The notes beneath the pieces are model-generated. The model was not told the origin of the DNA and searched no databases. It saw only the letters and a program-made list of their open reading frames with translations. A DNA stretch of 21,784 bases from a virus, in the IMG/VR virus record IMGVR_UViG_3300028008_000121, positions 1 through 21,784 of that record, one strand, 5' to 3'. The position numbers and the translations under genes were made by a program. Below, piece after piece: positions 4,258 through 13,036 of the stretch; position 1 is the first letter of the stretch, and the number at the start of each line of letters is the position of its first letter.

Positions 4258-6591
4258 ATGAGGAAAATGACTGGGATTCATATAGTTAAGCGAAACGGAG
4301 AGAAAGAGAACTTAGATTTAGAAAAAATGCATAAGGTCGTATTCGAGGCCTGTAATAACATCAGTAATGTGTCAGCAAGTGAAGTAGAATTAAAATCTCA
4401 TATTCAATTTTACAGTGGCATGACAAGTAGTGAAATACAAGAAACACTTATAAAAGCGGCAGCCGAATTAATATCAGAAGATTTGCCAAACTATCAATGG
4501 GTTGCAGGCAATCTAATCAATTATCATATCAGAAAAGAAGTATATGGTACTTTTGAACCAAGTCATGTACTTGATTTAGTTAAACAAAATGTTACTTCTG
4601 GATTCTATGATAAGTCTTTACTAGAAGATTATTCAGTAGAAGAATGGGAAAAGATTAACACATTCATTAAACACGATAGAGATTTTAACATTACATATGT
4701 TGGAATGGAACAGTTTCGCGGAAAGTATCTAGTACAAAATCGAGTAACAAATAAACTTTATGAAACGCCACAGATGGCATATATGCTAATTGCGGCAACA
4801 CTATTCAGTAGTTACGCAAAAGAAGAAAGATTAAAATGGGTAAAAGATTACTATGATGCAATTAGTACTTTTGATATCTCGTTACCAACTCCTGTTATGG
4901 CTGGTGTTCGTACACCACAAAGACAATTCAGTAGTTGTGTATTAATTGAAACAGATGATAGTTTAGATAGTATCAATGCGACATCTAGTTCAATTGTTAA
5001 ATATGTCTCTCAGAAAGCAGGAATTGGGGTTGGTGCGGGTAGTATCCGAGCAATAAACTCACCTATTCGCAATGGCGATGCATCACATACTGGTGTTATT
5101 CCATTCTATAAAATGTTTCAAGCGGCAGTTAAATCATGTTCACAAGGTGGTGTTCGTGGTGGTGCGGCAACATTATATTATCCTGTTTGGCATTTAGAAG
5201 TTGAAGACTTACTTGTTTTAAAGAACAATAAAGGTACAGAAGATAATCGTGTAAGGCACATGGACTATGGTGTTCAGTTCAATAAACTGATGTATGAACG
5301 TCTAATGATTGGTGGCAATATTACATTATTCTCACCACAAGATGTCCCAGGATTGTACGAGTCATTCTTTAATGACCAAGATAAGTTCCGTGAACTATAT
5401 GAACAAGCAGAACGTAAAACATCTATTCGTAAGAAATCAGTTCCAGCAATTGAATTGTTTTCTGCATTTATGAATGAGAGAAAGAATACAGGTCGTATCT
5501 ATCTACAAAATGTAGACCATGCGAATGACCATAGTTCTTTCATTTCAGAGGTAGCACCAGTCAAGCAATCAAATCTATGTTGTGAGATTACTCTTCCAAC
5601 AAAGCCATTGAATAGTGTGATGGATGAAGAGGGCGAAATTGCTCTCTGTACACTCAGTGCTATCAATTGGGGTAATATAAAATCTCCAGAAGATTTTGAA
5701 AAGCCTTGTGATTTAGCAGTAAGAGGTCTTGATGCTCTATTGAGTTACCAAGATTATCCACTCATTGCGGCCGAGTTAGCAACTAATAACAGGAGACCTT
5801 TGGGCGTAGGCATTATTAATTTTGCGTATTGGTTGGCTAAAAACGATACGAATTATACTGACCCTAACTTAGAGTTAGTTGATGAATGGGCAGAAGCCTG
5901 GAGTTATTATCTAATCAAAGCATCAAATAATTTGGCAAAAGAGATTGGACCTTGTCCTAAATCTGATGAAACAAAGTACGGACATGGTGTAGTACCAATT
6001 GATACTCGTAAAATAGAGATTGATGAACTAGTTAAACACACAGAAAGAATGGATTGGAAATCTCTTAGAGAAGATTTAAAAGAACACGGAGTAAGAAATT
6101 CAACATTAATGGCTCTTATGCCTGCTGAAACATCAGCACAGATTTCAAACTCAACGAATGGTATTGAACCACCAAGAAGTTATGTATCGATTAAACAATC
6201 AAAACATGGAGTTCTGAAACAAGTTGTCCCTGGTATTCATAAGTTAAAAAGTAAGTATGAACTTCTATGGGACCAACAATCGCCAGAGGGTTACTTAAAG
6301 ATTATGGCAGTATTACAAAAGTATATTGACCAAGGTATCTCAGTGAACACAAGTTATAATCCAGTGTTCTTTGAAGATGAAAAGATACCAATGTCTGTGA
6401 TGTTACAACATCTTATTATGTTTTATAAGTACGGTGGTAAACAATTATACTATTTCAATACATTCGATGGTCAAGGAGAGTTAGACATTAATGTATTAAA
6501 TTCAATGGATAAAAATGAAGAAGTTTCAGAGGAACCGTTAGCATACGGTACCTTAATAGATGATGAGGATTGTGAAGGTTGCACAATATAG
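4258..6591 (+). CDS. nrdA: Class Ia ribonucleoside-diphosphate reductase, alpha subunit
   Basis: NrdA reduces ribonucleoside diphosphates to deoxynucleotides for phage DNA synthesis, working with NrdB. The 777-residue product is colinear with E. coli NrdA. It has an N-terminal ATP cone (IVKRNGEKENLDLEKMHKVV, about 9-95). The active-site cysteines align as Cys227 (QFSSC), Cys441 (SNLCCE) and Cys464 (ALCTLS). The radical-transfer tyrosine pair is Tyr731-Tyr732 (QLYYFN), and the C-terminal redox CxxC is Cys772/Cys775. All key residues are present, so it should be active. The ATG at 4267 (MTGIHIVKRNG) fits homologue N-termini and the upstream AGGGA better than 4258; the difference is three residues. 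It is followed 12 bases later by nrdB. Confidence 0.96.
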   Translation: MRKMTGIHIVKRNGEKENLDLEKMHKVVFEACNNISNVSASEVELKSHIQFYSGMTSSEIQETLIKAAAELISEDLPNYQWVAGNLINYHIRKEVYGTFEPSHVLDLVKQNVTSGFYDKSLLEDYSVEEWEKINTFIKHDRDFNITYVGMEQFRGKYLVQNRVTNKLYETPQMAYMLIAATLFSSYAKEERLKWVKDYYDAISTFDISLPTPVMAGVRTPQRQFSSCVLIETDDSLDSINATSSSIVKYVSQKAGIGVGAGSIRAINSPIRNGDASHTGVIPFYKMFQAAVKSCSQGGVRGGAATLYYPVWHLEVEDLLVLKNNKGTEDNRVRHMDYGVQFNKLMYERLMIGGNITLFSPQDVPGLYESFFNDQDKFRELYEQAERKTSIRKKSVPAIELFSAFMNERKNTGRIYLQNVDHANDHSSFISEVAPVKQSNLCCEITLPTKPLNSVMDEEGEIALCTLSAINWGNIKSPEDFEKPCDLAVRGLDALLSYQDYPLIAAELATNNRRPLGVGIINFAYWLAKNDTNYTDPNLELVDEWAEAWSYYLIKASNNLAKEIGPCPKSDETKYGHGVVPIDTRKIEIDELVKHTERMDWKSLREDLKEHGVRNSTLMALMPAETSAQISNSTNGIEPPRSYVSIKQSKHGVLKQVVPGIHKLKSKYELLWDQQSPEGYLKIMAVLQKYIDQGISVNTSYNPVFFEDEKIPMSVMLQHLIMFYKYGGKQLYYFNTFDGQGELDINVLNSMDKNEEVSEEPLAYGTLIDDEDCEGCTI

Positions 6592-9218: not shown

Positions 9219-9645
9219 GAGTTGGATATACGGAACTCTTATAACGATTGTAATTTTATTTGCATTCGTACAAACGGTTGAGGCACAAAATACTCAACCA
9301 CACAAGATTGACACTGACCCAGAGTTGCTTGTTCTTGCACCTGAACTTCTCGAAAAAGAACTGGCTATAATGGTATTAGGGGGCATTGATTATTATGTCC
9401 AAGAATGTACTACATTAACCTCTCGTGGTGTTATCTATAGAAATAAAATAATTACATATCACGAAATATCAGAAGATTTTCTACCAATCAATCCAACATA
9501 TATCAAAGGAGCATTAGCAGTGTCTGGTTATGATTGCTATGAGATGTATGAATTGATAGAATCGTTAGAACAAGGTGTAATAGAAGAACCACAACAACCT
9601 GTTGATAAAGAGACAATTATTTCAGAAGATTTATTGACATCGTAA
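9208..9645 (+). CDS. Hypothetical exported protein with signal peptide
   Basis: The chosen ATG at 9208 gives 145 residues starting MSFKSWIYGTLITIVILFAF, a classic signal sequence: a basic residue, a hydrophobic core and a VEA-Q signal peptidase I site near residue 26. The frame is open further upstream, but that part has no signal-like features and overlaps the preceding gene. The mature part is acidic, with two central cysteines (YVQECTT, SGYDCYEMYEL) that could form a disulfide in the periplasm. No function is recognised. A periplasmic or envelope role in the infected cell is inferred from the signal only. Promoter P3 overlaps its last codons. Confidence 0.7.
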   Translation: MSFKSWIYGTLITIVILFAFVQTVEAQNTQPHKIDTDPELLVLAPELLEKELAIMVLGGIDYYVQECTTLTSRGVIYRNKIITYHEISEDFLPINPTYIKGALAVSGYDCYEMYELIESLEQGVIEEPQQPVDKETIISEDLLTS

Positions 9646-9692: not shown

Positions 9693-9950
9693 ATGATAGA
9701 GTCGGAAATGTTTTATATGGTATGGATTGCTTGTGGTGTTTGTATGTATCTTTCTTATCAAATGGGAAAAGGTGAAGGATATAAAAATGCACAAATTGAA
9801 ATAGCAACCACGATAGTTGATATACAATTAGAAAAGATAAGAGTACAAGAAATGAAACAAGAGGTTGAATCTCATAAACAATCACTTCTTGAAATTCAGA
9901 AAGAAACGGAACAACTAGTTAAAGATGCAAAACCAAAGGAAATAGCATGA
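9693..9950 (+). CDS. Small membrane-anchored coiled-coil protein
   Basis: An 85-residue product with one N-terminal membrane segment ([18 protein letters not shown], about 7-24), then a long charged helix from about residue 32 to 80 ([35 protein letters not shown]) with heptad-like spacing. The layout is that of many small phage inner-membrane proteins; a lysis role (spanin-like) is conceivable but nothing specific supports it, and its position before prs argues against a lysis cassette. The stop overlaps the prs start (ATGA). Confidence 0.75.
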
Positions 9951-10900
9951 AAATTATTGCTGGAAATAGCAATTTACCCCTAGCCGAAGAAGTCGCCGCA
10001 CATTGTTTTGCTTCTTTGGTACCAGCAGAAATAAAAGCATTTGCAGATGGCGAAACTAGTGTAGAATTTTTAGAAAACATTCGTGGTGAAGATGTTTTTA
10101 TTATACAATCAACAAGCACACCAGTTAATGATAATCTGATGGAACTTTTGATTATGATTGATGCCGCAAAACGTAGTAGTGCAAAACGAATTACAGCCGT
10201 TATGCCTTACTTTGGATATGCAAGACAAGACAGAAAGAGTGCAAGTAGAACTCCTATTACTGCAAAACTTGTTTCAAATCTGATTAGAGAAGCAGGTGCG
10301 GATAGAGTTTTAACAATGGATTTACATGCTGGTCAAATTCAAGGATTTTTTGATATTCCAGTTGATGATTTAACAAGTAGAGTTGCTTTTGCTAAAGATA
10401 TTAAAAGAAAGTTAGGCAAAAAAGTATATCAAAACACAGTATTTGTTTCACCAGACGCAGGCGGAACGCCAAGAGCAAGAAGATTTGCTGATATGTTCAA
10501 TGAAGATATTGCTATCGTTGATAAACGCAGACCTAGAGCAGGTGAAAGTGAAGTAATGAATATTATTGGTGAGGTTGATGGACAACACGCAATAATTGTA
10601 GATGATATCATTGACAGTGGTGGAACATTATGTAATGCCGCAAAGGCAATCATAGATGCTGGTGCATTAAGTGTAAGAGCATACATTACTCATGGAGTAT
10701 TAACGGGTACAGCCTGTCAAAAGGTAGAGAATAGTGTATTAGAAGAATTAGTTATAACGGACAGTATTAATTTTGTATGTCCAAGTGATTGTAAGAAGAC
10801 ACGAGCAGTGTCAGTATCAAAATTATTCGGTGAAGCAATTCGCAGAGTAAGTAATGAAGAAAGTGTAAGTAGTTTGTTTAATAACAACATAAAATTATGA
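9947..10900 (+). CDS. prs: Ribose-phosphate pyrophosphokinase (PRPP synthetase)
   Basis: Prs makes PRPP from ribose 5-phosphate and ATP, feeding nucleotide and NAD synthesis. The 317-residue product matches bacterial Prs in length and motifs: [25 protein letters not shown] (about 27-51), [11 protein letters not shown] (about 84-94), [11 protein letters not shown] (about 126-136), [20 protein letters not shown], and the PRPP loop [12 protein letters not shown] near 211-222. The E. coli residues DLHAEQ and SPDIGGVVRA read DLHAGQ and [10 protein letters not shown] here. Some phage Prs homologues act on ADP-ribose in NAD-rebuilding pathways; this cannot be told from sequence by eye. It is coupled by ATGA overlaps to both neighbours. 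Confidence 0.93.
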
Positions 10901-11133: not shown

Positions 11134-11157
11134 TTTACCCATAAAACCCTTAAAAAT

Positions 11158-11185
11158 TTGACAAATCCTCGATTTGTGCTATAAT
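11158..11185 (+). promoter_or_regulatory. Sigma70-like promoter P4 with a 7-bp dyad filling the spacer
   Basis: TTGACA at 11158-11163, a 16-base spacer and an extended -10 TGCTATAAT (TATAAT at 11180-11185). ACAAATC at 11161-11167 and GATTTGT at 11171-11177 are perfect inverted repeats. The predicted start is near 11192. The segment 11175-11220, from the extended -10 through the start codon, is nearly identical to that of P5. Confidence 0.8.
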
Positions 11186-11220
11186 ATAAGTATATTCAAT
11201 AAAAGAGAGGGTTAAATATG
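11175..11220 (+). repeat. Promoter/ribosome-binding module, copy 1
   Basis: A 46-base segment (TGTGC-TATAAT through GAGAGGGTTAAATATG) repeated at 11921-11966. I count 41 of 46 identical bases and no gap; the last 16 bases are identical. It places both downstream genes under the same start signals. Confidence 0.85.
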
Positions 11221-11646
11221 GCTTATATATCAACTGATGAAGTAAAAGCAGTTCGAGTTGCTCTTAAAGAGCGTTTCAAAAACAAACTTAAGTTCTCTGT
11301 TCGTAGAGAAAACTATTCAAGTCTTAATGTTTCTATCGTTTCTGGTGAAATAAACTTCTATGACGGAAGTTTAGACTCAGAAGATAGACACAATCCTAAT
11401 GCTCCAATCAATAAATTCGATGGGCATCTTCAAGTGAACAATTATTATCCTGAATATTACGGAAAACATTCTTCATTAATCGCAGATATTGATAATATTA
11501 TGAAAACTGCACCTGCAAATGCAGAAGGTGGACGTGAATATTATGATAATTCAGATGCAATGATTGATTATTTTGATACTGCCTTTTATACTAACATAAG
11601 CATAGGTAAGTGGAACAAACCTTATGAATTTAAGGGAGCGAAATAA
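11218..11646 (+). CDS. LPD29-domain-like protein
   Basis: The 142-residue product starts MAYISTDEVKAVRVALKERFKNKLKFSVRRENYSSL and contains YYDNSDAMIDYFDTAFYTNISIGKWNKPY near the end. Both patterns resemble the large polyvalent protein-associated domain 29 (LPD29) found in phage and plasmid proteins delivered into or made early in host cells. The biochemical function of that domain is unknown. A strong GAGAGGG lies before the ATG, and promoter P4 lies directly upstream. Its stop overlaps the next ATG by one base (TAATG). Confidence 0.75.
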   Translation: MAYISTDEVKAVRVALKERFKNKLKFSVRRENYSSLNVSIVSGEINFYDGSLDSEDRHNPNAPINKFDGHLQVNNYYPEYYGKHSSLIADIDNIMKTAPANAEGGREYYDNSDAMIDYFDTAFYTNISIGKWNKPYEFKGAK

Positions 11647-11897
11647 TGTCAGTAGAACTAAAACAAAAACTTGACAAAATCTACATAGATATTGATGGTC
11701 CTAATGGAAATGCATTTAATCTATTAGGAGCCGCTTCGGTTTTATCTAAGAAATATGATTTTCCTGGTGAGACGATTAGAGATGAAATGGCATCAGGTGA
11801 TTATATGAATTTACTAAAGGTATTTGATGATAATTTTGGTGAGTTCGTAGTGTTACAAACTGAAAATGCTGAGTATCTTGAGGCATTTGCAAAATGA
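11646..11897 (+). CDS. Small conserved phage protein
   Basis: An 83-residue product, not functionally assigned. The pattern YIDIDGPNGNAFNLLGAASVLSKKY followed by DEMASGDYMNLLKVFDDNFGEFVVL is one I recall from many small phage proteins near metabolic genes. Start and stop overlap the LPD29-like gene (TAATG), so they are co-translated. Promoter P5 follows its stop within a few bases. Confidence 0.75.
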   Translation: MSVELKQKLDKIYIDIDGPNGNAFNLLGAASVLSKKYDFPGETIRDEMASGDYMNLLKVFDDNFGEFVVLQTENAEYLEAFAK

Positions 11898-11903
11898 AAA
11901 AAC

Positions 11904-11931
11904 TTGACAGATATGATATCTGTGCTATAAT
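11904..11931 (+). promoter_or_regulatory. Sigma70-like promoter P5 with a perfect 8-bp dyad filling the spacer
   Basis: TTGACA at 11904-11909, a 16-base spacer and an extended -10 TGCTATAAT (TATAAT at 11926-11931). ACAGATAT at 11907-11914 and ATATCTGT at 11916-11923 are a perfect 8-bp inverted repeat around one base. The predicted start is near 11938, 26 bases before the ATG at 11964. Confidence 0.8.
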
Positions 11932-11966
11932 ATATTTATATTAAACAAATGAGAGGGTTAAATATG
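11921..11966 (+). repeat. Promoter/ribosome-binding module, copy 2
   Basis: Second copy of the 46-base module at 11175-11220, 746 bases away, ending in the ATG of the AAA+ ATPase. Five differences by hand count. Confidence 0.85.
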
Positions 11967-12977: not shown

Positions 12978-13003
12978 AAAGTTTAAAACGTGTTAACCCT
13001 CGG

Positions 13004-13036
13004 CGCCAGTAATAGAAATGTTACTGGCGTTTTTTT
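13004..13036 (+). terminator. Strong rho-independent terminator after the AAA+ ATPase
   Basis: A perfect 9-bp GC-containing stem (CGCCAGTAA at 13004-13012 with TTACTGGCG at 13021-13029), an 8-base loop and seven T. It separates the ATPase operon from uvsW. Confidence 0.9.

Follow-up and report, generated by a model that had tools for sequence, protein, structure and literature searches.

Promoters P4 and P5 of this phage are copies of a sigma70-type cassette, A4-5C-TTGACA-N16-TATAAT, that is repeated through a clade of jumbo phages and carries two short half-sites within its spacer. We put at roughly even odds, a probability of about 0.5, the reading that these half-sites serve a putative host DNA-binding protein. 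The window, meaning the whole stretch of DNA analysed, is a 21.8-kb virus record (21,784 nucleotides) whose UvsW-type helicase has its nearest named relatives among jumbo phages, at 58% identity to Phosso, then the PA5oct-like phages, and 52% to Atu_ph07; contigs bearing relatives of its AAA gene reach 342 kb. Because the relatives of both genes lie on jumbo contigs, the source is placed in a jumbo-phage clade and not among the classical T4-like phages, so that the label T4-like, used in an earlier note on this DNA, was a loose one. A marine source can be guessed at from the relatives. The window also holds a gene for a ribonucleotide reductase large subunit with an ATP cone (4258-6591) and a phage-borne ribose-phosphate pyrophosphokinase gene (9947-10897). 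The features around the two promoters are as follows.

11150-11157, + strand: A-rich stretch adjoining the P4 -35 on its upstream side, TTAAAAAT; AAAAAC in most of the promoter family
11158-11185, + strand: promoter P4, TTGACA-AATCCTCGATTTGTGC-TATAAT, with a 16-bp spacer and extended -10 TGTGC; precedes the LPD29-domain gene at 11218
11161-11177, + strand: P4 spacer dyad, ACAAATC-CTC-GATTTGT, with left half-site AATC and right half-site GATT; 4/5 inner pairs
11186-11217, + strand: P4 leader, a conserved AT-rich start region and purine-rich GAGAGGG, followed by the ATG at 11218
11218-11646, + strand: gene behind P4, 142 aa, LPD29 domain (PF18847), phrog_10415
11646-11897, + strand: 83 aa, phrog_1933; follows the LPD29 gene and probably belongs to the P4 unit
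11895-11903, + strand: A-rich stretch adjoining the P5 -35 on its upstream side, TGAAAAAAC
11904-11931, + strand: promoter P5, TTGACA-GATATGATATCTGTGC-TATAAT, with a 16-bp spacer and extended -10 TGTGC; precedes the AAA-ATPase gene
11907-11923, + strand: P5 spacer dyad, ACAGATAT-G-ATATCTGT; 5/5 inner pairs
11932-11963, + strand: P5 leader on the assumption that translation begins at the in-frame ATG 11964; contains GAGAGGG (11951-11957), spaced as in P4
11949-12977, + strand: gene behind P5, 342 aa, AAA ATPase (PF00004), phrog_1250; 5 aa shorter if the start is 11964

P4 and P5 each match the sigma70 hexamers at 12/12 positions, with TG before the -10, and by their -35, -10, spacing, TGn and nearby start codon both have the sequence of strong sigma70-type phage promoters. 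The first base of the start codon lies 33 bases past the -10 in P4 and 18 in P5, or 33 with the second ATG, and the P5 gene may start at ATG 11964, the ORF list giving the ATG at 11949. A strong terminator-like hairpin (13 pairs, then a T-run) at 13002-13031, 3' of the AAA-ATPase gene, probably closes the P5 unit. The description of the two promoters as near copies with near-palindromic spacers is confirmed, their sequences being as the earlier note quoted them, and it was correct that two differences between them are matched on both arms: A-T in P4 is G-C in P5 at positions 4/14, and C-G is A-T at positions 7/11. There is also a third difference at the central pair 8/10, an unpaired C.C in P4 and T-A in P5. 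As had been proposed, the dyad belongs to the DNA, lying ahead of the predicted transcription start, and it recurs across the promoter family.

Because the outer ACA and TGT of the dyad are set by TTGACA and the extended -10, the five inner pairs alone are informative. The earlier note had asked whether shuffled spacers would give equal dyads as often, and they rarely do: the 5/5 of P5 has a probability of 0.004 when its own letters are shuffled and 0.0014 in random sequence of 35% GC, and the 4/5 of P4 a probability of 0.02 by either measure. Folded as single-strand DNA, the two spacers each form a 7-bp stem (-4.1 and -4.0 kcal/mol, equalled by 0/200 and 1/200 shuffles). For comparison, 105 other distinct viral spacers were taken from the matches listed for the pattern TTGACA-N11-TGTGCTATAAT. 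Among these listed matches, 3 of the 105 reach an inner-pair score of at least 4, and the shuffle expectation is 2.1 for 107 spacers, two from the P4/P5 family included. In the window and the relatives of its AAA gene, seven distinct spacers have this pattern, with scores of 5, 5, 5, 4, 4, 4 and 2. The dyads of P4 and P5 are unusual for promoters of this pattern, and the symmetry is genuine, a property of their family.

Other dyads occur at promoters. An inverted repeat of the -35, TTGACA-N4-TGTCAAG, occurs in the spacer before TGTGCTATAAT at eight loci (L058, L061, L094, L100, L129, L130, L166 and L167), and at 5/8 of them the repeat lies behind TTATTGTAC. The window promoter at 9634 has the dyad ACATCGT-AATG-ACGTTGT, and similar-looking promoters appear mostly to differ there. 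At L054:5890-6000, by an AAA-gene orthologue of only 47% identity, the promoter-like sequence is of another kind, and a dyad, ACCATT-A-AATGGT, overlaps its -35. Finally, positions 1136-1190 of the window hold a sigma70 promoter with perfect hexamers, TTGACA-N18-TATAAT, and a few bases beyond it a hairpin and T-run resembling an intrinsic terminator, a layout predicted to yield a very short RNA. L253 and L270 have an identical hairpin, and its 3' arm, CTCTCTTTT, is complementary in sequence to AAAAGAGAG of the P4 leader; the dyad of the same promoter, TTGACA-TTCAC-TGTCAA, is kept in the matching L270 unit and lost in L253. The window has no Rfam match.

The wider family comprises 85 distinct AAA[ACT]TTGACA promoters from 135 loci. 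The spacer is 16 bp long in 72 of them, 34 in the window's group (W, AAA gene at least 80% identical) and 38 in a sister group (C, ~69-72%); it is 17 bp in 12 others and 18 bp in 1, and these 13 were left out of the 16-bp analyses. The spacer columns are symmetric in both groups: the match probability is 0.435 in W about axis 6.0, against 0.286 for shuffled columns (p 0.007), and 0.488 in C about axis 6.5, against 0.258 (p 0.003), where each p-value is the best of 12 axes and becomes ~0.08 (W) or ~0.04 (C) on correction. The left and right half-sites of both groups have mirror-image base frequencies, as a dimeric operator would, at the uncorrected p-values. C has 58 observed pairs where permutation of arms among promoters gives 55.3 (p 0.28), W has 83 where it gives 73.9 (p 0.063), and an inner-pair score of 4 or 5 is found in only 7 of the 34 W spacers. 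Halves that vary largely independently around a symmetric consensus are what a protein site of two half-sites would give, not a base-paired structure, and the spacer box itself is only roughly mirror-symmetric. The -10 is TATAAT in 24/34 W promoters as against 4/38 in C, where it is weak.

Comparisons of orthologous spacers bear on the claim, made in the earlier note, that the two matched differences reflect selection for pairing through compensatory change. First, 7/8 distinct P4 orthologues in the window's group have an unaltered left arm, AATCC, and the right arm drifts; 69.6% of cells are paired, against 70.3% when shuffled, and no cell is compensated. With the sister clade added (n = 17), pairing falls below the shuffled level (60.5% against 64.7%). 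Second, the P5 orthologues of the window's group (n = 11) are paired at 85.2% against 83.5% shuffled, with 136/500 shuffles as high, and a two-sided change is found in 1/8 pairs. L017 and L018 keep 0/5 of the inner pairs; L018 folds at 0 kcal/mol and L032 at -0.1, and both retain the other promoter features. Third, a weak signal in the opposite direction is present in the widest sets. All 17 P5 orthologues together are paired at 76.5% against 71.4% (8/500 shuffles as high), with a covariation of 0.249 against 0.170 (9/500), a level that related sequences can reach without structure; perfect compensated forms among them are GATTTTAAATC (L026) and GATTCAGAATC (L029). A sample of 71 spacers has 141 pairs, where shuffled letters give ~93 and permuted arms 123.7 (p 0.02 for the latter), and removal of the P5 orthologues brings the arm-permutation p to 0.11. 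This remainder is weak, since the pair counter accepts G-T and the shuffles ignore relatedness, and it leaves room for some selection on pairing.

For P4 the compensation claim fails; for P5 it stands between undecided and unsupported. Covariation above a shuffled null, which the earlier note had proposed as its check, is lacking among near relatives (P4, P5, and P4 with the sister clade) and weakly present in the widest P5 and 71-spacer sets. Divergence without pairing, which by that note's own account would tell against it, is seen in the right arm of P4 and in L017 and L018, while L026 and L029 stay compensated. Two matched differences between two promoters resembled covariation, and the orthologue comparison did not uphold it; the observation was real and its interpretation is mostly wrong. 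Of the two options that had been offered for the dyad, a drifting protein-binding site is the better, and a DNA hairpin lacks support.

In the sister group the spacer contains a fixed box. GANTC starting at spacer position 7-9 is present in 33 of 38 distinct C spacers against a shuffle expectation of 0.46, and in 3 of 34 W spacers against 0.39. P4 and P5 have no GANTC, as is the case at the box position in 31/34 W spacers, and the W box is mostly GATTT or ATATC-like; the motif is still carried by the P4 orthologue L009 (CGAATC) and the P5 orthologue L011 (GATTC). Counted by contig, GANTC occupies the box position in 15/18 cassettes of G011 and 8/9 of G013. Forward matches to the longer form [CA]GAWTC[GA]TG lie 11-13 bases from the first base of TTGACA in 13/15 cases in G011 and 7/9 in G013, as against 0/7 and 0/4 for reverse matches (one TTGACA mismatch allowed), and none is so placed near TTGACA in PA5oct, Phosso or Atu_ph07, each covered by a segment of 120-140 kb. 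The total of 22 such forms in G011 (both strands) is no more than a third-order Markov model allows for (19.3), so that the box is special by its placement and not by its frequency. A scan of viral_contigs returned at least 120 stretches for the GANTC pattern and 3 for an AGNCT control; in 16 contigs, all chosen from the GANTC-pattern matches, the matches are on a single strand per contig and the reversed control gives 0. The N of the box is A or T in 104/104 boxes at spacer position 8, and G or C in 0.

GANTC is depleted in G011 and G013, the two largest of the contigs obtained: no other of 24 like-built motifs is as rare there (observed/expected 0.56), and none has as high an intergenic/coding ratio (1.70 and 1.93, respectively), although the cassettes themselves inflate the intergenic count. 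Observed/expected is 0.61-0.77 in the other contigs (G015 0.74, pooled W 0.77) and 0.85 in the window, where the intergenic/coding ratio is 0.41; the segments of PA5oct and Atu_ph07 also give 0.77.

The cassette is shared across phage lineages. Three small-phage contigs, L450, L424 and L496, contain 6, 2 and 3 cassettes, often accompanied by the leader ATATACATAAT, which is seen in the jumbo phages too. Pelagiphages or phage DSL-LC06 give the matches to their terminase, portal, capsid or scaffold genes, and no ORF of at least 60 aa from the three contigs has a match in the six jumbo contigs at an E value of 1e-4. Sharing of the cassette in the absence of shared detected genes points either to a reader in the host or to transfer of cassettes between phages. 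The reader of the box would more likely be a host protein than a phage protein, and cassette transfer would explain the sharing too; three contigs are few, and each singly may be a chimeric assembly. Further afield, Atu_ph07, Phosso, PA5oct, phiM12 and Melnitz-3 have 3 matches in total to AACTTGACA-N16-TANNNT, with GANTC at the box position in 0, and with one mismatch the GANTC form gives 7 matches among these five, of which Phosso has 6 and phiM12 has 1; the reversed control gives 6. The pelagiphages HTVC111P, HTVC112P and HTVC202P, relatives of L450, have no cassette. A scan of genome_contigs found two metagenome-assembled contigs: L297, filed under a Flavobacteriaceae metagenome-assembled genome, has a full GANTC cassette with leader at 1510-1540 and is probably a misbinned phage contig, and L296 has the core pattern without the family's leader.

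Two regulators were sought as candidates in the phage records, with MucR found in none of 10 records and GcrA in 0/16. A CcrM-type gene (PF01555) scores above cut-off in 0/32 records, with one weak sub-cut-off match each in G011 and G023, and the phage methylase PF02086 is not found above cut-off in the jumbo-clade records, its two matches both being in Atu_ph07.

We propose that the cassette (A4-5C, TTGACA, a 16-bp spacer, TRTG-extended TATAAT, an AT-rich leader and GAGAGG) would serve many small transcription units of the jumbo-phage clade, and that its spacer half-sites would be bound by a protein acting jointly with host RNA polymerase. One half-site would touch the -35; the other, more constrained, would lie ~4 bp upstream of the -10 and read GATTT or GATATC in W and GAATC or GATTC in C. 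Facing half-sites would make the consensus roughly palindromic, with the good match in P5 and P4 arising by happenstance. The binding protein and its host origin are putative, as is its action as an activator rather than a repressor, which the mostly off-consensus -10 hexamers of the sister clade suggest.

A rather unlikely alternative is that RNA polymerase itself reads the spacer, through the UP-like A-tract, the TRTG, spacer contacts and the leader, and that cassettes have been copied between genes, their palindromic look being a by-product of an ACARAT...ATYTGT consensus. The W consensus could be such a polymerase-imposed preference plus cassette copying: ACA and TGT belong to the -35 and the extended -10, the symmetry resides mostly in column composition, as the arm permutation of W indicates, and P4 and P5 orthologues often lose it. 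To our knowledge, however, the spacer preferences of the polymerase are less specific than a GAWTC box held at one position seven bases from the -35, and the other viral TTGACA-N11-TGTGCTATAAT promoters among the matches listed have no such symmetry. T4 early promoters, in the available text of one report, have an extra consensus beyond the -35, TGn and -10 (PMC2988021). By the same text they are, as the cassette would be, strong promoters for the host polymerase, which combine -35, TGn and -10 with A-rich DNA upstream and further bases in common; the cassette differs from them in having a fixed box inside a 16-bp spacer.

A specific form of the protein-site explanation, which we also regard as unlikely, holds that the box is a host GANTC signal, methylated by CcrM and used by the sigma70 cofactor GcrA to activate the phage promoter in an alphaproteobacterial host, W having largely lost GANTC following a change of host or cofactor. 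The SAR11 bacteria, which are alphaproteobacteria, are infected by phages with relatives of the L450 and L424 structural genes. GANTC stands at one fixed place in the great majority of C spacers, yet is the rarest of the 24 motifs in G011 and G013, and the C promoters have a weak -10. In the available text of the reports concerned, rarity with intergenic bias is the pattern of GANTC in CcrM-bearing alphaproteobacteria (PMC3973325); Caulobacter start sites that have GANTC between -35 and -10 fall into a single cluster, which is switched on at 40-60 minutes (PMC4287350); GANTC methylation enhances GcrA binding, and GANTC mutation costs four promoters 60-80% of their activity (PMC3667746); and the proposed GcrA activating motif is YGAKTCK or YGAKTCG (PMC7987155), to which CGAATCG and AGAATCA conform when read on the opposite strand (AGAATCA as YGAKTCK). 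Sister-clade promoters, likened to those of Caulobacter by sequence, share with them a GANTC in the spacer just upstream of the -10 and, in G011 and G013, its depletion outside promoters.

The same comparison also separates them, as the cassettes are in phage DNA, use GAWTC only, and are AT-rich with a perfect -35. P4 and P5 have no GANTC between -35 and -10, and 31/34 W spacers have none at the box; the restriction of N to A or T is one that CcrM would not require; depletion is weak outside G011 and G013, being as strong in PA5oct and Atu_ph07 as in pooled W, and in the window GANTC is not biased towards intergenic DNA. The searches for PF01555 in 32 records and GcrA in 16 were negative as given above, and the promoter class is absent from the alphaproteobacterial phages Phosso, Atu_ph07 and phiM12 and from the three SAR11 isolates. 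Even in Caulobacter, merely 31% of GcrA-bound cell-cycle starts have GANTC nearby (PMC4287350), and in a Brevundimonas no extended GcrA motif was found (PMC7987155), again in the available text of those papers. A fuller version of this scheme is speculative and unlikely: phages in which no common gene was detected, from small tailed ones with pelagiphage-like structural genes to 340-kb jumbo phages, would share a cassette with the host CcrM site and be switched on in the cell cycle by GcrA-sigma70, and the W site would have decayed to the unmethylatable, more symmetric operator of P4 and P5.

It is improbable that the reader is a phage-encoded dimeric repressor or activator that binds the spacer dyad and times early genes. 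Consensus half-sites mirrored about one axis and common to many promoters do have the look of a regulon operator, but the box also occurs in the small-phage contigs that share no ORF of at least 60 aa with the six jumbo contigs, and most members have a dyad well short of perfect. Operator-in-spacer promoters, for example those with lac- or tet-type repressor sites, have symmetric half-sites between -35 and -10. The cassette resembles these in half-sites that are symmetric, lie between -35 and -10 and vary independently, and is unlike them in being common to phages without shared genes and in often having only one good half-site. Least probable by far is a dyad kept as a DNA hairpin or cruciform, the earlier note's parallel to the N4 virion RNA polymerase, which proves unsupported: the stems of P4 and P5 fold better than shuffles, could form a short stem with a 3-nt loop as in N4 hairpin promoters, and have the matched differences, the compensated L026 and L029 and the weak covariation of the widest sets in their favour, but compensatory change is absent from P4, near P5 orthologues and P4 with the sister clade, orthologues with unstable stems (L018, L032) keep the other promoter features and L017 has no inner pairs, perfect sigma70 hexamers flank the dyad, and, in the available text of one report, an E. 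coli promoter lost its activity when an N4 hairpin was inserted between its -35 and -10 (PMC4496689). A search for RNA_pol (PF00940) gave no match in 8 records, nor in any control genome.

The promoter family with its fixed spacer box, around P4 and P5, is a more interesting object than the hairpin first proposed, and it is possibly tied to host methylation. Among the titles and abstract openings of the openly licensed literature in the matches listed, we found no description of GANTC boxes or of such dyads in phage promoters. If a host factor reads the box, the cassette would be a host-specific signature in phage DNA that could help to assign uncultivated giant phages to their hosts, and it would offer a direct test of whether phages use bacterial DNA methylation for the timing of their genes.
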